A stretch of 64,000 nucleotides of DNA from an uncultured Acidilobus sp. JCHS (lineage in GTDB: Archaea; Thermoproteota; Thermoprotei_A; Sulfolobales; Acidilobaceae): positions 1-64,000 of the forward strand of contig AYMD01000008.1 in NCBI GenBank assembly GCA_000495735.1, read 5' to 3'. The position numbers and the translations under genes are program-made. Position 1 is the first letter of the stretch. Every line of letters begins with the position of its first letter. Below are positions 34,265 through 56,614 of the stretch, piece after piece. Below the pieces are notes generated by a model. It made no database searches. It was not told the DNA's origin and saw only the letters and a list, made by a program, of their open reading frames with translations.

Positions 34265-35440
34265 ATGCTGGAAGTGTTGCCGATGAACTCCGTGAGGGTG
34301 TTGCTGATAGGCGCAGGGGCGGGCACTTCGTACTTCCTCGCAGGCCTTGAGAAGATAAAGTCCAAGGAGGTGGAGCCCCTGGGCATACCCTTCCTGAACC
34401 ACCTGAAGGCCTACAGGCCTGAGGACGTTAAGGTCGTAGGGGTCCTCGACGTTGACGCCTCTAAGGTCGGCAAGGACATGTATGAGATAGCCAGCAAGCT
34501 CGTCCCCTATGGACAGATCCCGAGGGCGCTTAAGGACATAGTGGTTGAGCGAGGCGTCCACTGCGGCAGCCTGAGGGGCCTGCCCGTGACAGCGCTGGGC
34601 CTTGATGACCTTCTAGGCGACTCAATGGCCGCCGTGGAGCAGGTCGTTAACACCCTTCAGAAGCTTCAGCCTGACGTAATAGTTAACGTCATAACCACAG
34701 AGCCCTACAGCTACGCCGAGAGCGAGCTTGACTTCATCAAGCTAGCCCCAAGGTGCAAACTGGGGGCCACTATGGCCTACGCCTACGCCGCCGCGGAGTA
34801 CAGCAGGAGGAGCGGGCATAAGGTGGCCTTCGTCAACTTCACGCCGCCGCCTGCCGCCAACAGCCCAGGGGTGGTCAGCTACTTCGACAGGGTGGGCGCC
34901 CTGGTCCTCGGAGACGACGCTGCTACGGGGGCCACGCCGCTGACGGCTGACCTGCTGGAGCACATAGCTGAGAGGGGGCGCAGGGTGACTTCGATAGCCC
35001 AGTTCAACATAGGGGGCAACACGGACTTCCTGAGCCTGACAGAGCCTGAGAGGAACCACTCAAAGGAGATAACGAAGAGCAGCATAGTCGATGACATACT
35101 GGGCTATGACGCGCCGCACTACATAAAGCCCACGGGCTACCTTGAGCCCCTTGGGGACAGGAAGTTCGTCTCTATGCACATAGAGTACATAGGGTTCGGC
35201 GGGTTCAGGGACGAGATAATAGTCAACGCCAGGATTAACGATAAGTCTAACCTGGCTGGGCTGATGGCGTCTGCTATACCGATATCAAAGGCCCTGATCG
35301 ACAGGGGCGTCCGCGGCACGCACGCTCCAACTAACAGGTTCTTCATGAAGATGCCCGGCCCGAGGGGGACCAAGAACGTGAGCAGGATAGTTGCCTACTA
35401 TGACCTGCTCAAGGAGCTCAGGGCCCTCGACATAGCTTAA
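34265..35440 (+). CDS. ino1: Inositol-3-phosphate synthase
   Basis: The product is 391 residues. It has a Rossmann NAD site (IGAGAGTSYF, about 15-24), DVDASKVGK, the NFTPPPAANSPG segment, the GNTDFLSLTEPERNHSKE active-site region, and YIGFGGFRD near the C-terminus. It converts glucose 6-phosphate to inositol 1-phosphate, the head-group precursor of archaetidylinositol and, in some thermophiles, of di-inositol-phosphate. ATG 34265 lies about 24 bases from the TATA box AGTATAAATA, a leaderless arrangement. The archaetidylinositol-phosphate synthase candidate is 4.6 kb downstream. Confidence 0.92.
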   Translation: MLEVLPMNSVRVLLIGAGAGTSYFLAGLEKIKSKEVEPLGIPFLNHLKAYRPEDVKVVGVLDVDASKVGKDMYEIASKLVPYGQIPRALKDIVVERGVHCGSLRGLPVTALGLDDLLGDSMAAVEQVVNTLQKLQPDVIVNVITTEPYSYAESELDFIKLAPRCKLGATMAYAYAAAEYSRRSGHKVAFVNFTPPPAANSPGVVSYFDRVGALVLGDDAATGATPLTADLLEHIAERGRRVTSIAQFNIGGNTDFLSLTEPERNHSKEITKSSIVDDILGYDAPHYIKPTGYLEPLGDRKFVSMHIEYIGFGGFRDEIIVNARINDKSNLAGLMASAIPISKALIDRGVRGTHAPTNRFFMKMPGPRGTKNVSRIVAYYDLLKELRALDIA

Positions 35441-35457
35441 CGTTAGTAAATCTATAT

Positions 35458-35472
35458 ATCTAATTATTAGAT
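35458..35472. promoter_or_regulatory. 15-bp palindrome upstream of second TauE gene
   Basis: ATCTAAT-T-ATTAGAT is a perfect 7-bp inverted repeat around one base. It lies 18 bases past the ino1 stop and 60 bases before the TauE start, upstream of a TATA-like CATATTTAAC (about 35495-35505). It could be an operator for the exporter or a 3' element of ino1. Short AT-rich palindromes can arise by chance. Confidence 0.35.
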
Positions 35473-35532
35473 ACATTGCGTAAAACCTCTTGATCATATT
35501 TAACCTGCCAAAAGGACTGTCCAGGTGAAAGA

Positions 35533-36360
35533 ATGTACCTGACTCCACTGCAGTATGGCCTCTCCGTGGTCTCAGGTGTGATAGTTGGGTTCTCCCTGGG
35601 CCTCATAGGCGGCGGGGGCTCTATACTTGCCGTCCCCCTGTTACTTTACCTTGTGGGCATTAGCTCAATTCCTAACGCCGCCCATGTAGCCCTTGGCACT
35701 ACGGCGCTGGCTGTGGGAATCAACGCTTACATAAACTCCTACATGCACCTGAGGAAGAAGAACGTTGCGCCAAGGGTCGGAGCGCTGTTCGCTGGCGTCG
35801 GCCTCATAGGGGCCCTCCTCGGCACCTACCTGGGCCACATAACTCCTGGCGAGAGCCTCCTCCTCTACTTCGCCATAGCCATGATAGTCCTGGGCGTCTA
35901 CATAGGCTTCTTCAGGCACTCGGCCTCGGCAGGCTCCAGGGAGGAAGTTGACAGGGTCCTTGAGGCCGCCTCAAGGTGCCCAAGGCTGACGAAAAGGGTT
36001 GCTACCATCGTCGCGGCCTCTGGCTTCTTGGTCGGGCTGATAAGCGGCTACTTTGGCATAGGGGGCGGCTTCCTCATAGTGCCGGCCCTCATGTTCTCGT
36101 CAGGGCTGTGCATAGCTAGGGCCATAGGCACCTCGCTGATAAGCGTGGGCACCTTCGGAGTGGCGAGCGGGCTTGAGTACGCTGTATACGGCGACACCCT
36201 GTTCCTCATATCGGCCCTTTACTTAATAGGCGGCGTCGCGGGCGGCTACGTAGGCACAGGCCTCGCCGTGAAGGCGCCCAAGAAGACCCTCCAGAGGGCC
36301 TACGGCATCATCATAGTGCTAGTTGGCATCTACATGATCTTCCGCGTGCTCCACCTCTAA
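35533..36360 (+). CDS. TauE/SafE-family anion exporter
   Basis: The product is 275 residues with eight predicted helices. The family signature is duplicated: GFSLGLIGGGGSILAVPLL in the first half and GLISGYFGIGGGFLIVPAL in the second. Unlike the paralogue at 6192 it has only a short central loop and no DUF1634 partner. It probably exports a sulfur-containing or carboxylate anion. ATG start at 35533, about 30 bases from its TATA-like box. Confidence 0.88.
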   Translation: MYLTPLQYGLSVVSGVIVGFSLGLIGGGGSILAVPLLLYLVGISSIPNAAHVALGTTALAVGINAYINSYMHLRKKNVAPRVGALFAGVGLIGALLGTYLGHITPGESLLLYFAIAMIVLGVYIGFFRHSASAGSREEVDRVLEAASRCPRLTKRVATIVAASGFLVGLISGYFGIGGGFLIVPALMFSSGLCIARAIGTSLISVGTFGVASGLEYAVYGDTLFLISALYLIGGVAGGYVGTGLAVKAPKKTLQRAYGIIIVLVGIYMIFRVLHL

Positions 36361-36403
36361 CCTAAAAATAACGGGACCGCCAGGTAACCCCTTTGGGTTC
36401 GCC

Positions 36404-37162
36404 TTGAAGGGCGAGGATAAGGTCGTGGTAATAACGGGTGGCGACAGGGGCATCGGCAAGGCCACAGCCCTTAGGTTCGCCAGGGAGGGCTACATGGTCG
36501 TCATAACGTACAGGTCGAATAGGGAGGCCGCTGAGCAGACCATTAATGATGCTCTCTCGGCAGGCTCCCCCTCAGCCATGTACTACCAGCTTGACGTCTC
36601 AGACCTCGCCTCCGTTAAGGCGTTCTCCCAGGCCCTCTCATCAGCTCTGCCTTACGTCAACGTATTAGTTAACAACGCTGGCATCATAGACTACTACACA
36701 GCAGAGGAGCTGACCCCTGAGAGGTGGGACGAGGTAATAAAGGTGGACCTCTCAGGCCAGTTCTACGTCATAAAGCACCTGCTACCGCTGCTCAAGAAGG
36801 CCCCCTGGGCAGCCATAGTTAACGTGGCCAGCATATCCGGCGAGACCGGCAACGTTGTGGCCGGCGTTGCCTATGCCACCGCCAAGGCGGGCCTCATAGG
36901 CCTCACCAAGAAGCTCGCCATAGAGCTGGCCAAGTACGGGATCAGGGTGAACGCTGTGGCGCCCAGCTTCGTAGAGACTGACATGACCGCCTCGGTCCTC
37001 TCAGACCAGGCCAGGAGGGCTCAGATCTTGTCGTTGCACCCGCTGAACAGGATAGCTAGGCCTGAGGACGTGGCTGAGGCCATTTACTTCCTCGCCAACC
37101 CGGTCACAGCAGGTAACATAACTGGGCACGTGCTAAACATAAACGGAGGACGTTATACGTAG
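36404..37162 (+). CDS. Short-chain dehydrogenase/reductase
   Basis: The product is 252 residues of classical SDR type. The cofactor loop is TGGDRGIGKA, then NNAGIID, the catalytic Ser in NVASISGE, YATAKAG (Tyr and Lys), and PSFVETDMT. Most similar families are 3-oxoacyl-ACP/CoA reductase and sugar dehydrogenases, and the substrate is open. The TTG start lies in TTGAAGGGCGAGGAT, which matches half of the IS605-type hairpin at 18410; this may be coincidence. Confidence 0.87.
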   Translation: MKGEDKVVVITGGDRGIGKATALRFAREGYMVVITYRSNREAAEQTINDALSAGSPSAMYYQLDVSDLASVKAFSQALSSALPYVNVLVNNAGIIDYYTAEELTPERWDEVIKVDLSGQFYVIKHLLPLLKKAPWAAIVNVASISGETGNVVAGVAYATAKAGLIGLTKKLAIELAKYGIRVNAVAPSFVETDMTASVLSDQARRAQILSLHPLNRIARPEDVAEAIYFLANPVTAGNITGHVLNINGGRYT

Positions 37163-37221
37163 CTCAGTGACGCCTAAACTGTTTAATGCTTTTAAGCGAA
37201 GACCTCAGCCTTGTAGCCGCA

Positions 37222-38076
37222 GTGACGCCCTTAACAGACATGTTGAACTTAGCACACTACTTTAAGCTGGCAGGCTATGCCATCGCTCTAGGCTCTGCCA
37301 TAAACCTTGTTCTGACCCTCCTCTGGGGGCTGAGGTGGAGGAGCGGCCTGAGGCGCCTTGGCCTTCAGGTCTCATACGTAAGGGCCCTTGAGGCCATAGC
37401 ATCAAGCTTCCCAATAGGCGTCTTCCTGCCAGGCAACAAGGCGTCGCAGGAGGCGTTCAGGATTGCGTACCTCAGGGTGCCGAACGAGCACAGGGCCAAG
37501 GTCATATCCGCGACTACGTTAGAGTGGGTGAGCGAGGGGGTCGTGCTCGGGGCCTTCGTCCTTGGCCTCCTGGTGTTCAGGTATGCCAGGTACCTGACCC
37601 TCCTGCCCGCAAGCCTTTACCTTGTGGAGCTGCAGGAGAGCGGCGTCAGCGCCAAGGCGAGGAAGGCCCTTAATGACTTCATCGGCGGCCTTAAGGCGTT
37701 GGCCTCGGACAAGGAGATGCTAGCCATCTATATTAGCGTCAGCGCCGCCATACTGGCACTGGATATCTTTAAAGTGGGCTACATGTTGGAGGTCCTGGGC
37801 TTCAACTTGAGCCTGGCCGAGCTAATAGCGCTATACACGGCCCTAAGGCTATCCTCGCTGGCCCCGACGCCCGCCGGCGCTGGCGTCTTCGACCTAACGG
37901 TCATAGCTGTACTTACTGCCATGGGCTGCCCAGCGGAGATCTCTACCGTCTACTTAGTTGCGATAAGGGTCGTTGACACCCTTCTGCCCGCCGGCGTCGG
38001 CGCTGCGGTCCTCGCCACCTCAGGCGGCCTAAGAATTTTGGAGGCCGTGAGGAGGAGAAGGGTTGGAAAGCCTTAG
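37222..38076 (+). CDS. UPF0104 (LPG synthase TM-domain-like) membrane protein
   Basis: The product is about 284 residues with seven or eight predicted helices. The SSFPIGVFLPGNKASQEA stretch and the late SSLAPTPAGAGVFDL match UPF0104, related to the membrane part of lysyl-phosphatidylglycerol synthase, some members of which move lipids across membranes. A TATA-like CTTTTAAGC (37188-37196) favours GTG 37222 as a leaderless start over ATG 37186. Its 3' end overlaps the glycosyltransferase by 14 bases. In this operon it could flip a glycolipid, which is inference. Confidence 0.75.
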   Translation: MTPLTDMLNLAHYFKLAGYAIALGSAINLVLTLLWGLRWRSGLRRLGLQVSYVRALEAIASSFPIGVFLPGNKASQEAFRIAYLRVPNEHRAKVISATTLEWVSEGVVLGAFVLGLLVFRYARYLTLLPASLYLVELQESGVSAKARKALNDFIGGLKALASDKEMLAIYISVSAAILALDIFKVGYMLEVLGFNLSLAELIALYTALRLSSLAPTPAGAGVFDLTVIAVLTAMGCPAEISTVYLVAIRVVDTLLPAGVGAAVLATSGGLRILEAVRRRRVGKP

Positions 38077-39337
38077 GATAGCCATGGTTTCTGACTGGTT
38101 CCTCCCCCGAGTCGGGGGCGTCGAGGTAAGCATACATGAGCTAGCCCGCGCGCTCGGCATGAGAGGGCATGAGGTATTTGTCGTCACGCACAGCTACACG
38201 ACTACAAAGAGCTCGCATGTCCTTGAGGATGGAGACCACTATATTGTCTACAGGGCCCCCTCACCTATTAACGTAAAGGATGACGTGACCCTGGACCCAT
38301 TAGCTGTCGCGAGGTCTGTTCTGTTCATTAAGCGTAACGCCTTTGACCTAGTGCACTCACACGGGATCTCCTCTACGCTGAGCCTTATGACAAGTATGGT
38401 CGCGAGCGGCGGCATCGGCGTGCCCAGCGTCCTGACGAATCACTCCCTGATATCTAATGACCTGCCACCTGGCGTGAGGAGGCTGCTCAAGTACGGGCTT
38501 AAGTGGCCAACAGTGCTTACTGGCGTCTCGAGGGCCGCCTCGCACGACGTCGAGGTCATCAGTGGGAGAAATTCAAGGCTGACGCCTAACTGCATAGACG
38601 TCAATAAGTGGCGCGAGGCCGCCTCCTCTCAAAAGCTTGAGGGGGACCCGGCCGTCATAATAACGTCCAGGCTCTCGAGGAGGAAGAACCCCCTTGAGAT
38701 AGCTAGGGTCGCTGAGCTGGTCCTCAGGAGACTACCCAGGGCGGTGTTCTACGTCATAGGGGACGGAGTCCTCTCGGCAGACCTGAGGAAGCTCATAGCC
38801 AGCAGAGGACTAGAAGGCCACGTAAGGCTCCTCGGTACAAGACCCAGGCATGAGGTTGCTAAAATGCTGTCGGGCGCTGACTTCTTTGCCCTAACCAGTT
38901 ACAGAGAGTCCTTTGGGCTGGCGGTCCTTGAGGCGATGGCCCTGGGCTTAGTCCCCGTAGTGTACAGGTCACCCGGCGTACTTGACCTAGTAGAGGACGG
39001 ACAAAGCGGCTTCGTAGCTGATGACGCGACCTCCATGACTGAGGCCATAGCCAACGCCTACGAGGACCAGGCCCTGTTCCGCTCTGCCTCAAGGGCGTCA
39101 GTGGAGAGGGCCAGGCTCTTCGACTGCCAGGCCGTGATAGACAGCTATGTCCTACCTGTCTACAGGGAGGCCTTGAATTCCTGCTCTCAGAATGACAGGA
39201 GGTTCCTAGTTTACAGGCTATATCGCCGCCTAGTAGGAGACCCTGTGAGGCCGGGCGAGTGGTGTAGTGAGAGGAAGTGGAGGTATCATGAAAGGGCCAA
39301 GGAGGGCCTTGTCCCTGTCATTCGACGTAGAGCCTGA
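38063..39337 (+). CDS. GT4 glycosyltransferase, PIG-A-like (GlcNAc-inositol lipid)
   Basis: The product is 424 residues of a GT-B enzyme. The N-terminus AMVSDWFLPRVGGVEVSIHE followed by GHEVFVVTHSY closely resembles PIG-A, which adds GlcNAc to phosphatidylinositol. The C-terminal domain has the E-x7-E donor motif in RESFGLAVLEAMALG (about Glu281 and Glu289). The last 60 residues are an extra basic tail. It overlaps both neighbours (UPF0104 by 14 bases, the deacetylase by 50). With a deacetylase and a CDP-alcohol transferase downstream, transfer of a HexNAc to archaetidylinositol is a reasonable hypothesis. Confidence 0.82.
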   Translation: MESLRIAMVSDWFLPRVGGVEVSIHELARALGMRGHEVFVVTHSYTTTKSSHVLEDGDHYIVYRAPSPINVKDDVTLDPLAVARSVLFIKRNAFDLVHSHGISSTLSLMTSMVASGGIGVPSVLTNHSLISNDLPPGVRRLLKYGLKWPTVLTGVSRAASHDVEVISGRNSRLTPNCIDVNKWREAASSQKLEGDPAVIITSRLSRRKNPLEIARVAELVLRRLPRAVFYVIGDGVLSADLRKLIASRGLEGHVRLLGTRPRHEVAKMLSGADFFALTSYRESFGLAVLEAMALGLVPVVYRSPGVLDLVEDGQSGFVADDATSMTEAIANAYEDQALFRSASRASVERARLFDCQAVIDSYVLPVYREALNSCSQNDRRFLVYRLYRRLVGDPVRPGEWCSERKWRYHERAKEGLVPVIRRRA

Positions 39338-40028
39338 CGCGCCCCCTTACCTGAACACCCTCAGGGGTGTTGACGAGGGCCTTCCTAGGCTGCTCGACCT
39401 CCTTGACGAACTGAGGGTCAGGGCAACCTTCTTCTTCGACGCGAAGGTCGCCGAGGGGAGGGAAAGGCTCGCCAAGGAGGTCGTTGACAGAGGCCACGAG
39501 CTCGGCAGCCACGGGTACGGGCATGTTAGGCTTGACAGGGTCAGCAGGGGGGAGGCGCTGAGCCTTATTGACAAGTCCCTGAGGACCCTCAGGCGGTTCT
39601 CTGAAGTCGTCTCGTTCAGGGCGCCTAACCTCAAGCTTCCCTGGCCACTGCTGAAGGACCTGGTCACCCTAGGGGTAGAGGTCGACTCAAGCGTGGCCTC
39701 GTATAAGCCCCCCTTTGTCAGGCAGCCCTTCTGCTACGGGGGCCTCCTCAGGGTACCGGTGTCGGTGACCAGCAGCGTCCTCAGGGTCCCCCACTCCCAT
39801 GAGCTGCTTAGGCTGACCCTAAGGAACAGCTACATCGTGTTGTTCGCCCACCCCTGGGAGTTCGTCAAGCTTAGGCACTGGAGGCCTGACATCTGGCTGT
39901 GGACAGGTCCCGGCCTCTACCTAAAGCTTAAGAACATAGTGAAGGCCTACGTGGAACGAGGGTATGACGTCATTACGATCAGGGAGGCCAGAGGCCTGGT
40001 GATCAGGTGTGGTGATGGGGAGGCTTAG
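39288..40028 (+). CDS. Polysaccharide deacetylase (NodB-type)
   Basis: The product is about 246 residues. The catalytic and metal residues follow the NodB order: SFDVEPD (motif 1), ATFFFDAKV, GHELGSHGYGHVRL (HxxxH zinc pair), SFRAPNLK (motif 3) and LFAHPWEFV (last His). The FDVE and HPWEF forms resemble deacetylases of exopolysaccharide and glycolipid loci. ATG 39288 follows a GGAGGT site, inside the glycosyltransferase gene. It may remove the acetyl group from GlcNAc on the inositol lipid, as PIG-L does with a different fold. Confidence 0.85.
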   Translation: MKGPRRALSLSFDVEPDAPPYLNTLRGVDEGLPRLLDLLDELRVRATFFFDAKVAEGRERLAKEVVDRGHELGSHGYGHVRLDRVSRGEALSLIDKSLRTLRRFSEVVSFRAPNLKLPWPLLKDLVTLGVEVDSSVASYKPPFVRQPFCYGGLLRVPVSVTSSVLRVPHSHELLRLTLRNSYIVLFAHPWEFVKLRHWRPDIWLWTGPGLYLKLKNIVKAYVERGYDVITIREARGLVIRCGDGEA

Positions 40029-40611
40029 GGAGCTGGTCAACAAGGTGGCCCCGTCAACTATAGGCAAGGCGCTCGCCAGACGAGGCGTCAAGGCTGACTA
40101 CATAACTTACGCGGGCCTGGCCCTAGCCGCCCTGGCCCCTGTCGTCGCGGCCCTAAGGGAGGGCTGGGCGGTGCCAGTCCTCGTGGCGCTCTCAAGCCTT
40201 ATGGATGTGATAGATGGCGCTGTGGCCAGGGCCTCGGGCAGGACCACGCCCTTCGGCTCCTACCTGGACTCCGTGACCGACAGGGCCTCTGACGCCATGT
40301 TCATAACCGCCATAGCCGTTCTCGGCGCTAACGCCTACCTCTCCCTTGTAACCCTCATGTTCTCCTTCCTGGTCAGCTACGCCAGGTCGAAGGGGGAGCT
40401 GCTGGGCGTCAAGATGGAGGGCGTGGGCCTCATGGAGAGGGGCGAGAGGGCGATACTGCTCCTCCTCGCCTCAATAGCCGCGGCGGCCGGCAGCCTCCTA
40501 GCCTGTAACATCATTGTGCTCACTATAGCTGTCCTCTCCGCGGTTACAGTAATCCAGAGGTCTGTGCACATCAAGAGGAGCTTGGAGGCCGCCCCTAAGC
40601 CTACCTCATAA
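40009..40611 (+). CDS. CDP-alcohol phosphatidyltransferase (archaetidylinositol phosphate synthase-like)
   Basis: The product is 200 residues with about six helices. The complete catalytic signature D-x2-DG-x2-AR-x8-G-x3-D-x3-D is present in DVIDGAVARASGRTTPFG with SYLDSVTD following. Archaeal members this size that occur with inositol-phosphate synthase join CDP-archaeol to inositol 1-phosphate, giving archaetidylinositol phosphate. Start could be GTG 40009, GTG 40012 or ATG 40015. It overlaps the deacetylase by 20 bases and ends the operon. Confidence 0.85.
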   Translation: MVMGRLRELVNKVAPSTIGKALARRGVKADYITYAGLALAALAPVVAALREGWAVPVLVALSSLMDVIDGAVARASGRTTPFGSYLDSVTDRASDAMFITAIAVLGANAYLSLVTLMFSFLVSYARSKGELLGVKMEGVGLMERGERAILLLLASIAAAAGSLLACNIIVLTIAVLSAVTVIQRSVHIKRSLEAAPKPTS

Positions 40612-52748: not shown

Positions 52749-53507
52749 TTGTGCAGGATGTTAGCCATAAAGCGTGATGGCCCGGAGGAAGTAAGTTTAT
52801 TACTTGAGGCCCTGGCCAAGGCCGCTCAACATGACGTCTTCGACAACATGAGCTCTCACGCCGACGGCTGGGGTGTTTACGCCATAGGCGACCAAGGGGC
52901 GCTTCACTACAGGTCCCTGACCCCTGCGTGGGAGGACCCCACCTACGCCCTCATAGCTAAGACAGCAGGCAGCTTCAAGGCGATGATAGTGCACGCGAGG
53001 ATGGCCTCGAGAGGCGAGCCCAAGGGGAGCCCGCTGTTCTCGCAGCCATTCCTTGTGCAGGTTAATGAAAGGTATGTAGCGCTGGCCCATAACGGAAGCG
53101 TCAACAAGGCGAGGCTGGCTGAATGGCTGGGGTTTAGAGTTGACCTGAGCTACGTCACAGACTCCGAGCTACTGGCGCTCGCGGCCTCTAAGGTTGACTT
53201 CAGCAGCGCCGCCGAGCTTGTCGAGAGGCTGAGGGAGATCGTTATGAAGGCCAACGCGGCGAAGGGCGCCCTGAACCTCCTGGCAATGGTCGTCGACCCC
53301 AGGTCGGCTAGCGTCTCCCTTGCATGCCTTGAGGAGCACCCACAGGTCAATGAAAAATATTATGCTATGTTCTCCTTCAGCAGAGGTTACTTCAAGGCCT
53401 TTATGTCATCAACCGTCGCTTACTACGCAGGCCTGATAAAGTCAGATCTCTCTGTAGACTCAGATTACGTGAACAGGTGCACCCCAGGAGAGGTTGTAGA
53501 GGCCTAG
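52749..53507 (+). CDS. Class II glutamine amidotransferase
   Basis: The product is 252 residues. The TTG start places the nucleophile Cys at position 2 (MCRMLAI), exposed after Met removal. SSHADGWGVYAIGD, VHARMASRGEPK and LAHNGSVNKARL are the N-terminal-nucleophile glutaminase features. There is no synthase domain, so it is a stand-alone glutaminase of the YafJ/EgtC-like kind. The acceptor is unknown. It lies in the same direction as the membrane/winged-helix pair. Confidence 0.85.
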   Translation: MCRMLAIKRDGPEEVSLLLEALAKAAQHDVFDNMSSHADGWGVYAIGDQGALHYRSLTPAWEDPTYALIAKTAGSFKAMIVHARMASRGEPKGSPLFSQPFLVQVNERYVALAHNGSVNKARLAEWLGFRVDLSYVTDSELLALAASKVDFSSAAELVERLREIVMKANAAKGALNLLAMVVDPRSASVSLACLEEHPQVNEKYYAMFSFSRGYFKAFMSSTVAYYAGLIKSDLSVDSDYVNRCTPGEVVEA

Positions 53508-53580
53508 CTCGTTAAGCATGGACCGCGAGTCCACACGTCTTAAAATAACTTTAACCTTATTTATGTCAAACTGAAGACAA

Positions 53581-54699
53581 TTGACCCTTGTAGGACTACG
53601 AAGCGAGGCCGAGCGAGAACCAACGCGTGACGAGCTGAGCTTGTCAGTTGGCCAAGGCCTTGACGGACACCTTAAGGTCCTGCTGGTAGCCGAGGTTGAT
53701 CCTAGGATCAGGGGCCTCAGGAGGGGGCCACAGCTCAGAGTCAAGTACGCCCCTGCGACCGTGAAGTACTACCTCCCTAACAACATAACGAGGCTTTACA
53801 TGGCGCCCCCCAGCTATGAGGCCTTATCACCGCTGGACAGCCTCAGGGCCCTTGTAAGGCAGGCAGCCCGTCTTCTAAGAGAGCCCATCGGAAAGGGCCT
53901 AGACCTAGCCCACACGTTCTTTGTGGACTTCACAAGGTTTGCAATACCATGCGTCCACGAGGCTGACCAAAGCCCAGGACAATACCTAGAGGGCTACCTC
54001 AAGGTCGACGGCGCGGCCAGGAAGCTGCTGTCAGAGCTTATCAAGGTGAAGCTTAGCACCTGTAAGGCGGTAATTACGTGGACTTCATGGGCCGCCAAGG
54101 GCTTCATAGCCGACGGGTTTGACAGGTCAAGAGTATACGTGGTGCCCCCTCCGCTTGAGGCCATGGCTGCAAAGGGTCACAGGGGCGTTAACGTGCTCAT
54201 CGTTGCAAGGGACCCCTACAGGAAGGGCCTTGACATAGCTTTAGAGGCCTTCATGAAGGCCTCAAGGGGCGTAGAGGACGCCAGGCTGACAGTAATAGGC
54301 CCACTTAAGTCTCTAGGCCTGCCCAGGAGCGTGAGGGTTCTGACGCGTGTCGAGGACGATGTACTTCATGACACAATAATGCCGACTATAGACATAGTCT
54401 TAGCGCCAAGCCGCTCTGATGCCTACAACCTCACGGTCCTTGAGGCCATGGCACATGGCGCCGTTCCAGTGGTTTCTAGCGCCGGAGGCCTACCTGAGCT
54501 GGTCTCCGACAGCGGCTTCGTGACGGAAATTGACGACGTCAGCTCGGTCACGAAGTCCCTTGAAGCCCTCATACTTGATGACAAGCTGAGGGGCAAACTG
54601 TCGAGGAGAGCAGTAGAGATAGTGAAGGAGAGGCACAACCCTGAGACTATCGGTTACAGGCTTTTAGAGGTCTACAGGAAGGCGCTTGAGGAGGACTAA
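53581..54699 (+). CDS. GT4 family glycosyltransferase
   Basis: The product is 372 residues. The C-terminal GT-B domain is clear: NVLIVARDPYRKGLDIALEAF, and the donor E-x7-E region in SRSDAYNLTVLEAMAHGAVP (the first Glu is replaced by Asp). The N-terminal acceptor domain is atypical and lacks the usual GG loop. TTG start is about 26 bases from a TATA-like CCTTATTTATG (53551-53561). It is followed 6 bases later by a transporter, suggesting a glycan-building and moving unit. Confidence 0.8.
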   Translation: MTLVGLRSEAEREPTRDELSLSVGQGLDGHLKVLLVAEVDPRIRGLRRGPQLRVKYAPATVKYYLPNNITRLYMAPPSYEALSPLDSLRALVRQAARLLREPIGKGLDLAHTFFVDFTRFAIPCVHEADQSPGQYLEGYLKVDGAARKLLSELIKVKLSTCKAVITWTSWAAKGFIADGFDRSRVYVVPPPLEAMAAKGHRGVNVLIVARDPYRKGLDIALEAFMKASRGVEDARLTVIGPLKSLGLPRSVRVLTRVEDDVLHDTIMPTIDIVLAPSRSDAYNLTVLEAMAHGAVPVVSSAGGLPELVSDSGFVTEIDDVSSVTKSLEALILDDKLRGKLSRRAVEIVKERHNPETIGYRLLEVYRKALEED

Positions 54700-54705
54700 A
54701 GCCTC

Positions 54706-55797
54706 TTGAGGAAGGAGGCCCTGGCCTTAACCGCCTCAACGGCCTCCATAAGGTTCTCAACGGCCATACTTCAGGCGGTCACACCGCTCTTCCTAGCCCT
54801 AACTGGGTTCAAGCTGGCCAATGTGGCCCTGTTCACCATCATCCTATGGGCCTCAATCACGGTGGGGTCCATAGTGGCTGCCCTGATCAGGGAGCCGAGA
54901 TACGTTGGTTTCGCAGGGCTAGTCCTGCTGGGCATAGGCCTTCTGCTACTTTACATATCCCCCTCCGCCGCAATGTTAGCTGTACCCCTCTCTGGCATAG
55001 GGTCCGGCATAGCTAGCTCCGTTCTCGCACCGCTGCTTCACAAAATGTCATCTGTCGAAAGACCCTTTGAGGGGGTTGCGAGCTACTCGCTGGCCCTCTC
55101 TATAGGCCTGGTCGCAGCCATGGCCTTTACGTCAATCCTGTCGCTTAGAGGCCTCACAATGGCCTTCCTGGGCGCTGCGGTCGTCTCCGTGTCGATAGCG
55201 GTCTTCCTTGTAGCCTACAGGGTTGAGCTGCCCCGTGTGAGGGTTGAGCTGCCCTCTATAGACGACGCAGTTATGATGTTCAAAGTGAAGCCGTTCGCGA
55301 AGGCCTTCACCTCAAACTTCGCCTACTCCCTGATATTGCCTCTAGTCCTTTCCTATTGGCCCCTTTACTCCTCCAAGGTGATTTACCTGCCTGTCGCTAC
55401 CTCCTTTGCCCTCCTCTCCGCGCTGTTCCTCGTGTCAGGCACTATAAGGGGACTCTCGATGGGCCTCAGAAGCGTTGAAGGGTCGCAGAAGCTGGCCGTG
55501 ATGGCACTTGTGATCTCGGTGGCCCTGCTGGCTACCAGAAGTGAGATACTGAGCGTAATAGGCCTGCTTCTGTTCTCCGTGCCTCACGCCCTGGTGTACC
55601 CTACGACGCTCTATCAGGCCATGACATCCTCACGGTCAGAGGTCAAGGCTAACTACGTCTTCTCCCTCTCATCAGGCGCGGCTGAAGTCCTGTCACCCAT
55701 GCTCGCTGGGCTAGTCATAACCGGCTGGGGGCTTGAAGCCCTCTACGTGGTGGCCGTTCCCTTGGCCCTGGCTTCAATGATCGCGTCATACGCTTAA
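54706..55797 (+). CDS. MFS-like membrane transporter
   Basis: The product is 363 residues with 10-12 predicted helices. A weak MFS pattern appears in VAALIREPRYVGFAGLVLLG and in SVPHALVYPTTLYQAMTSS. TTG start 6 bases after the glycosyltransferase stop. It is similar in style to the MFS protein at 21387. The substrate is unknown; coupling to a GT4 gene hints at a sugar or glycolipid. Confidence 0.75.
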   Translation: MRKEALALTASTASIRFSTAILQAVTPLFLALTGFKLANVALFTIILWASITVGSIVAALIREPRYVGFAGLVLLGIGLLLLYISPSAAMLAVPLSGIGSGIASSVLAPLLHKMSSVERPFEGVASYSLALSIGLVAAMAFTSILSLRGLTMAFLGAAVVSVSIAVFLVAYRVELPRVRVELPSIDDAVMMFKVKPFAKAFTSNFAYSLILPLVLSYWPLYSSKVIYLPVATSFALLSALFLVSGTIRGLSMGLRSVEGSQKLAVMALVISVALLATRSEILSVIGLLLFSVPHALVYPTTLYQAMTSSRSEVKANYVFSLSSGAAEVLSPMLAGLVITGWGLEALYVVAVPLALASMIASYA

Positions 55798-55837
55798 GCT
55801 GAAATAGCGATGGATCAGCCTACTAGAGGGACGTTAA

Positions 55838-56614
55838 GTGGAGCCAGAGGAGCTCAGGGAGTTGGCTGTTGAGCTGGCCGAGGAGGCCTCCAGGTTTCTC
55901 ATAAGCATGTGGTGTAGCGAGCTAACGGAGGTGGTTAAGGGTGATACCATTAGGGCTGACCTGAAGGCTGAAGAGATAATAGCTGAGAGGCTTAGGTCAA
56001 GGCTCAAGGAGTACACCCTGGTCTCTGAGGAGAGCGGCCGCACGGGCTCGGGCGGCTATGTATTTGTGGTGGACCCCCTCGACGGAAGCCTAAATTATGA
56101 ACACTGCATACCGTGGTCCTCCGTCTCAGTGGCCATAGCGAGGCCGGGCTCCAGTAGGTTAAGCGAGGTGGTGGCAGGCGCGATATCCCAGCTTGGCGGG
56201 CCCACGCTCTCCTTCGCCAGAGGACAGGGTTGTTATGTAAATGATGAGAGGGTCAGCCCGAGGCCCCAGCCCAGGAATGTAGTGTTCACCTACGTTGAGT
56301 CCCTGGAGGACGCAATAAGGGTAGCGAGGCTGTTCAACTCGATAAAGGGCCTTAAGTTAAGGAGCCTCGGGAGCGCCGCGCTCGAGATAGCCATGGTGGG
56401 CCTAGGGCGAGGGCTCGCCTACGTAGACCTCAGGAAGAAGCTGAGGAACGTCGACGCCGCTGCCGCCATAGGTCTTGCAAGGGAGTGCGGCGCCAGGGCC
56501 GTCGACGCCAGTGGTAATGACGTCGACGTTGAGATATCCGATGTGAGGCCCCTAGGTGACCTGATAGTGGCGCATGAAGGCGACCTAAACCTTGTCCTCA
56601 GGGCCCTCTCCTAA
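55838..56614 (+). CDS. Inositol monophosphatase family phosphatase
   Basis: The product is 258 residues. The metal-binding DPLDGSLNYEHCIPW motif, SEESG (Glu) upstream and NVDAAAAIGLARECG near the C-terminus define the IMPase/FBPase-like family. Archaeal members often hydrolyse inositol 1-phosphate and sometimes fructose 1,6-bisphosphate. With ino1 in the window, inositol formation is plausible. GTG start at 55838; the stop overlaps pelota's stop by 4 bases. Confidence 0.85.
   Translation: MEPEELRELAVELAEEASRFLISMWCSELTEVVKGDTIRADLKAEEIIAERLRSRLKEYTLVSEESGRTGSGGYVFVVDPLDGSLNYEHCIPWSSVSVAIARPGSSRLSEVVAGAISQLGGPTLSFARGQGCYVNDERVSPRPQPRNVVFTYVESLEDAIRVARLFNSIKGLKLRSLGSAALEIAMVGLGRGLAYVDLRKKLRNVDAAAAIGLARECGARAVDASGNDVDVEISDVRPLGDLIVAHEGDLNLVLRALS

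Follow-up and report, generated by a model that had tools for sequence, protein, structure and literature searches.

A UPF0104-GT4-NodB cassette within an Acidilobus inositol-lipid operon: candidate enzymes for glucosaminyl-archaetidylinositol synthesis

Which lipid is made by an archaeal operon in which inositol-lipid genes are combined with genes for a glycosyltransferase, a deacetylase and a membrane protein? The question is raised by contig AYMD01000008.1 of uncultured Acidilobus sp. JCHS, a thermoacidophilic archaeon (genome 1.48 Mb), of which positions 1-64,000, the window, were analysed. A row of seven genes on its + strand encodes INO1 (inositol-1-phosphate synthase), a TauE/SafE membrane protein, an SDR oxidoreductase, a UPF0104 membrane protein, a GT4 glycosyltransferase, a NodB-type deacetylase and a CDP-alcohol phosphatidyltransferase of the archaetidylinositol-phosphate synthase (AIPS) type, the last four overlapping. 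Our reading, to which a probability of about 0.68 is given, is that this operon makes glucosaminyl-archaetidylinositol, a product for which we infer the sugar, the acceptor, the order of the steps and the flippase role.

INO1 (34265-35440; PF01658, 99.4 bits), which heads the operon in the same-genus genomes, ends 1.75 kb before the UPF0104 gene. Between them lie the TauE/SafE (35533-36360; PF01925, 153 bits) and SDR (36404-37162; PF13561, 194 bits) genes, both conserved operon members. The UPF0104/COG0392 protein (37186-38076; PF03706, 64 bits; TIGR00374, 58 bits against a cut-off of 43) is a proposed lipid flippase with at least five hydrophobic segments in a simple hydrophobicity scan. Its gene overlaps by 14 bases that of the GT4 retaining glycosyltransferase (38063-39337; PF00534, 110 bits), the proposed transferase of N-acetylglucosamine (GlcNAc) onto archaetidylinositol. 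The NodB/CE4 gene (39288-40028; PF01522, 56 bits), for the proposed de-N-acetylase of the GlcNAc-inositol lipid, shares 50 bases with GT4, or 71 from an alternative GTG start at 39267, and 20 with the AIPS gene (40009-40611; PF01066). The two same-genus genomes sampled share the order Lsm-INO1-TauE-SDR-UPF0104-GT4-NodB-AIPS without change. Since, in addition, distantly related phyla possess the UPF0104-GT4-NodB core, the arrangement is not due to chance. An initial annotation of the locus had described four overlapping genes of these families, a complete CDP-alcohol signature, ino1 about 2 kb upstream, an IMPase-family gene at 55.8 kb and an inositol-lipid context. The genes and positions were confirmed, and the context is supported by INO1 together with the AIPS-type enzyme; the start of the UPF0104 gene had to be moved to 37186, as the earlier position, 37222, is an internal GTG codon.

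To define the distribution of the cassette, a NodB alignment profile was scanned against named genomes. Matches of at least 150 bits were taken as orthologues, and the resulting species list is a lower bound. Orthologues with 38-50% identity were found, among the matches listed, in Thermococcus, Methanosarcina, Methanococcoides, Pyrodictium, Thermodiscus, DPANN bins and a few bacteria; as a whole, this ancient cassette is spread over at least Thermoproteota, Thermococcaceae, Methanosarcinaceae and a few bacteria. A GT4 gene lay directly upstream of NodB in 65 of 68 orthologue loci, with ends that nearly always overlap, and several of the remaining NodB loci are interrupted by contig ends. The NodB-GT4 neighbourhood, which the initial annotation had proposed to trace, thus reaches beyond Thermoproteota. 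In the Methanosarcinales sample the NodB scores were bimodal (284-357 bits vs at most 116), so that the orthologues, present in 18 of 120 genomes, were cleanly separated; in Thermococcaceae the profile was matched by 69 of 91 genomes. Distances among the GT4s correlate with those among the NodBs (r 0.86; 0 of 2000 permutations), as would be the case for a unit; relatedness was not removed from this correlation, and shared ancestry by itself contributes to it.

Two bacterial operons of similar composition have been characterised experimentally. GpgSDF of Pseudomonas aeruginosa, consisting of a GT4, a deacetylase and a UPF0104 protein, produces glucosaminyl-phosphatidylglycerol (PMC12713373), and HexSDF of Clostridioides difficile produces aminohexosyl-hexosyl-diradylglycerol (PMC10128005); in both, the flippase role of the UPF0104-type protein is putative (PMC12713373, PMC10128005). 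GpgSDF resembles the cassette in that a GT4, a cytosolic deacetylase and a putative UPF0104 flippase share one operon and a phospholipid gains GlcNAc which is then deacetylated. It differs in its acceptor, phosphatidylglycerol, in a deacetylase annotated as COG3233 and not PF01522, in gene order (S-D-F vs F-S-D) and in acting on bacterial ester lipids. HexSDF likewise joins a transferase, a polysaccharide deacetylase and an MprF-like flippase to yield an amino-sugar lipid, but it uses a transferase of the monogalactosyldiacylglycerol-synthase kind and a neutral glycolipid as acceptor. In 55 of the 68 loci all three components, the transferase, the deacetylase and the UPF0104 protein, are encoded together as in these two systems. 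We regard the reading that the cassette makes an amino-sugar lipid as strong. The same three-gene context appears to be that described in archaea by Makarova et al. in 2015, who found UPF0104 associated with genes for a polysaccharide deacetylase and for a glycosyltransferase (MA0797, MA0798; arCOG00899-arCOG01403-arCOG02876 in Methanosarcina acetivorans) and proposed a role in glycosylation (PMC5898192). That assignment was to archaeal glycosylation generally, with no inositol-lipid proposal (PMC5898192); what is new here is that the neighbourhood is tied to glucosaminyl-archaetidylinositol.

The link to inositol begins with the last gene of the operon. The CDP-alcohol motif of its product, DVIDGAVARASGRTTPFGSYLDSVTD, is complete (D-DG-AR-G-D-D). 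Against NF040950, the AIPS equivalog model (cut-off 180), the window protein scored 179.5 bits and its same-genus orthologue 182.6 bits. Residues R92, R147 and R184 align with the inositol-phosphate-binding R94, R155 and R195 of Mycobacterium tuberculosis PgsA1 (MtPgsA1). Judged by these residues, the enzyme probably uses inositol phosphate and makes a phosphate intermediate, so that a phosphatase step would be needed. A possible candidate for this step is the IMPase-family phosphatase (55838-56614, + strand; PF00459, 108.9 bits), whose gene is unlinked to the cassette, lying 15 kb from the operon and adjoining genes for another GT4 and an MFS protein.

Outside the sample of the window's order, 28 of 31 cassette genomes, all three bacteria among them, encode INO1, compared with 6 of 14 control genomes. 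In the Methanosarcinales sample it was found in 18 of 18 cassette genomes vs 80 of 102 others, a weak association that ignores relatedness (Fisher p 0.04). A linkage independent of the archaeal operon was seen on a gammaproteobacterial contig from a Chromatiales metagenome-assembled genome (MAG; L097, 1-4010). Here a GT4 fragment and a NodB orthologue lie within 4 kb of INO1, which is on the other strand together with an FkbM methyltransferase and a CDP-alcohol transferase resembling phosphatidylinositol-phosphate (PIP) synthase. The latter matches best the AIP and PIP synthase models (132 and 123 bits, both under their cut-offs), and the contig may represent a bacterial glucosaminyl-inositol lipid locus. 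Taken with the Acidilobus operon, archaetidylinositol is the likely acceptor of the cassette enzymes, a substrate that we infer.

Is such a lipid known in organisms that carry the cassette? Glucosaminyl-archaetidylinositol was reportedly identified chemically in Methanosarcina barkeri by Nishihara in 1992. Its head group is that of the core of the eukaryotic glycosylphosphatidylinositol (GPI) anchor. The product proposed for the cassette is therefore a lipid already known from that organism. A genome whose McrA is 100% identical to PDB 1e6y (G334), which we take to be the M. barkeri protein, carries the cassette, as does an M. barkeri-type genome (G332). No biosynthetic genes for this lipid were found in the open-access papers searched. 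A HexNH2-PI-archaeol has been tentatively reported in Thermococcus kodakarensis (PMC3906577), and the T. kodakarensis-type genome has the GT4-NodB pair without UPF0104; no recognisable UPF0104 gene is seen upstream in T. kodakarensis-type loci (L235, L236). Conservation of the cassette thus extends to organisms for which amino-sugar inositol lipids have been reported on chemical grounds, as the initial annotation would lead one to expect.

NodB belongs to the CE4 family, with 56 bits to PF01522 against a cut-off of 23.1, a CE4 fold, and the metal-binding His pair and catalytic Asp in place. The motifs SFDVE, HGYGH, RAPN and HPWE are all present and conserved among orthologues. In an alignment of 40 orthologues H75, H79, R111, P113, D133, H188 and E191 are invariant, and E15 and D13 are kept in 39 of 39 and 38 of 38 of the rows that span them. 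The predicted model (pLDDT 92) matched CE4 structures, ArnD among them, and neither NodB nor GT4 has an N-terminal hydrophobic segment. These features support the assignment of NodB as a deacetylase, made in the initial annotation, and mark it as a predicted cytosolic enzyme with intact catalytic residues. No match to PIG-L (PF02585) was found in the window's genome or in any of the 13 order-sample genomes that carry the cassette. Its absence makes it plausible that a CE4 enzyme fills the PIG-L step; the lack of overlap between cassette genomes and PIG-L genomes in the order sample is not significant (P 0.10).

The description of the GT4 as PIG-A-like was overstated. The protein scored 21.7 bits against the Pfam PIGA family (PF08288), under the cut-off of 27; other cassette GT4s scored 13.5-24.2 bits or none, yeast GPI3 155.6 and Bacillus subtilis BshA none. 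Of the PIG-A motifs CM1-CM12 (PMC2446393; CM7 was dropped as uninformative), the GT4 matched 60% of positions, compared with 100% for yeast GPI3, 47-52% for BshA and 57% for GlgM. At CM1 it matched 8 of 12 vs 4 of 12 for BshA, which is a partial resemblance only. In an IQ-TREE tree the window GT4 grouped with other cassette GT4s (support 100/99), and GPI3, PimA, BshA and GlgM lay in an unresolved fork containing a single eukaryotic sequence. Of the reference sequences, PimA was identical to PDB 4n9w/2gej and GPI3 was vetted by its PIGA score and motifs. Foldseek searches with the predicted model (pLDDT 93) gave BshA, MshA and PimA as top PDB matches, which do not discriminate the acceptor. The PF08288 score and the 60% motif match speak against a PIG-A, and the tree gave no clade with PIG-A to which the GT4 could be assigned, so that no evidence for membership was obtained. 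If the glucosaminyl-archaetidylinositol hypothesis holds, the GT4 works like PIG-A without being assignable to that family, and the parallel to GPI lies in the chemistry rather than in demonstrated homology. The two steps proposed here for an inositol phospholipid, with a GT4-fold first enzyme, also open eukaryotic GPI synthesis (PIG-A, PIG-L); the differences are a GT4 under the PIGA cut-off, a CE4 deacetylase in place of PIG-L, and an ether lipid of opposite glycerol stereochemistry. The archaeal parallel of early GPI synthesis put forward in the initial annotation is thus supported in the absence of PIG-L and remains a proposal as to chemistry; its label of PIG-A-like for the GT4 is not supported.

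The expectation that the operon would be conserved in ino1-bearing relatives held for the same genus but not for all other relatives. Two Caldisphaera-like genomes, of another genus in the same family, have Lsm-INO1-TauE-SDR-AIPS, with AIPS right after SDR and the cassette absent. As these relatives hold the same operon minus the cassette, the three genes have either entered or dropped out of a pre-existing inositol-lipid operon whose order was left undisturbed. TauE and SDR stay between INO1 and AIPS in Acidilobus-type and Caldisphaera-type operons (L057, L058). Aeropyrum also has INO1 and AIPS and lacks the cassette, which fits its inositol lipid, reported to be glucosyl and not glucosaminyl (PMC4500131). 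Being absent from these INO1-bearing relatives, the cassette is an optional add-on. In Aeropyrum-type loci INO1 is paired with a CDP-alcohol gene matching both DIPP synthase and AIPS models (L056:7112-9112 and L073:6356-8366); this gene was not accepted as a second AIPS, the DIPP synthase model being slightly better (105 vs 100 bits).

In the pathway we propose, INO1 would supply inositol 1-phosphate, which AIPS would join to CDP-archaeol or the tetraether equivalent, yielding archaetidylinositol phosphate. This would be converted to archaetidylinositol by a phosphatase, possibly the IMPase-family protein encoded at 55.8 kb. At the cytoplasmic face GT4 would then add GlcNAc, probably from UDP-GlcNAc, to its inositol, cytosolic NodB/CE4 would strip the acetyl group from the GlcNAc-inositol lipid, and UPF0104 would carry the lipid, by then positively charged, to the outer leaflet. 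The initial annotation had overlooked the phosphatase step, the long-known Methanosarcina lipid, the HexSDF/GpgSDF logic and the cassette-less INO1-bearing relatives; its observation is confirmed and its interpretation partly supported.

Several results weigh against this pathway. Three cassette genomes, two DPANN bins and one small MAG, lack INO1. Within the window's order AIPS and INO1 are near-universal, so that their co-occurrence with the cassette there is uninformative and carries no weight, and beyond the genus the cassette usually does not adjoin either gene. The T. kodakarensis-type GT4 (L235) is on a branch apart from the main cassette GT4s, and a later study of T. barophilus interprets a comparable Thermococcus lipid as an aminohexosyl (HexN)-phosphatidylhexose (PMC9294538). 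M. acetivorans also encodes PIG-L, and NodB is thus not the sole candidate deacetylase there. A literature search found no head-group data for Acidilobus.

One alternative is that the amino-sugar lipid is flipped as proposed but built on another acceptor (archaetidylglycerol, hexosyl-archaeol, a tetraether glycolipid, or one that depends on the lineage), the AIPS neighbour in Acidilobus being incidental. GpgSDF acts on phosphatidylglycerol and HexSDF on hexosyl-diradylglycerol, and both the distance of the cassette from inositol genes beyond the genus and the HexN-phosphatidylhexose of T. barophilus would agree with it. INO1 in 28 of 31 cassette genomes, bacteria included, genomic linkage with AIPS-type genes and INO1 in two independent cases, and an M. 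barkeri lipid that is the inositol one make such an acceptor rather unlikely. It is more improbable still that GT4 and NodB act on a sugar attached to a dolichyl carrier, in the manner of ArnD with undecaprenyl phosphate, and that UPF0104 then flips it for S-layer glycosylation: no oligosaccharyltransferase or other N-glycan gene lies in the cassette, the cassette is linked to INO1 and an AIPS-type gene, and both characterised analogues are membrane lipid pathways. For an N-glycan or polyprenyl-phosphate pathway speak the earlier placement of the neighbourhood in archaeal glycosylation (PMC5898192), the UPF0104 domain at the C-terminus of AglD, and ArnD among the NodB fold matches.

A soluble thiol resembling mycothiol or bacillithiol would require GT4 to make GlcNAc-inositol phosphate (MshA-like) or GlcNAc-malate (BshA-like) and NodB to deacetylate it. 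BshA and MshA are the top sequence and fold matches of GT4, and INO1 supplies the acceptor of MshA (pathway per PMC7278568). Against this, the operon contains AIPS, no cysteine ligase was seen in it, and a multi-span UPF0104 protein overlaps GT4 in most loci. Moreover, the known mycothiol and bacillithiol pathways use PIG-L-family deacetylases, and a thiol product is considered highly improbable.

Synthesis of glucosaminyl-archaetidylinositol, the reading we prefer, provides a concrete three-gene hypothesis for the M. barkeri lipid with the GPI-anchor head group, and genetically tractable hosts are available in M. acetivorans (full cassette) and T. kodakarensis (GT4-NodB pair). With slightly less confidence, we favour the broader view that UPF0104-GT4-NodB is how prokaryotes in general make glucosaminyl-inositol phospholipids, a pathway that has spread laterally and has CE4 in place of PIG-L; as part of it, and held with similar reserve, the cassette would supply the enzymes still missing for the archaeal lipid whose head group is that of the GPI core. 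If true, archaea and eukaryotes make the glucosaminyl-inositol head group with deacetylases of different families, a point relevant to the question whether GPI synthesis was inherited from an archaeal pathway or evolved in parallel with it; one transferase-deacetylase-flippase logic would also be common to bacteria and archaea.

Two Thermodesulfobacteria MAGs (L085, L102) carry the cassette and INO1. As the GT4 of L085 groups with a Thermococcus-labelled one, transfer of the cassette between hyperthermophilic archaea and bacteria is suggested. About 2 kb from the cassette, three Pyrodictiaceae-type loci (L039, L041, L042) contain a second NodB gene, which is distant (about 50 bits) and lies on the opposite strand. 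A different family of the order has a NodB gene directly before a second AIPS-like gene (L045:8454-9815, L046:11392-12753), a separate NodB-AIPS pairing that was not counted as the cassette, the NodB being of a different subfamily (93 bits). Elsewhere in the window a second cluster (52749-56614) consists of genes for a class-II glutamine amidotransferase, a GT4, an MFS protein and the IMPase-family phosphatase; its GT4 is remote from the cassette GT4s in the tree.

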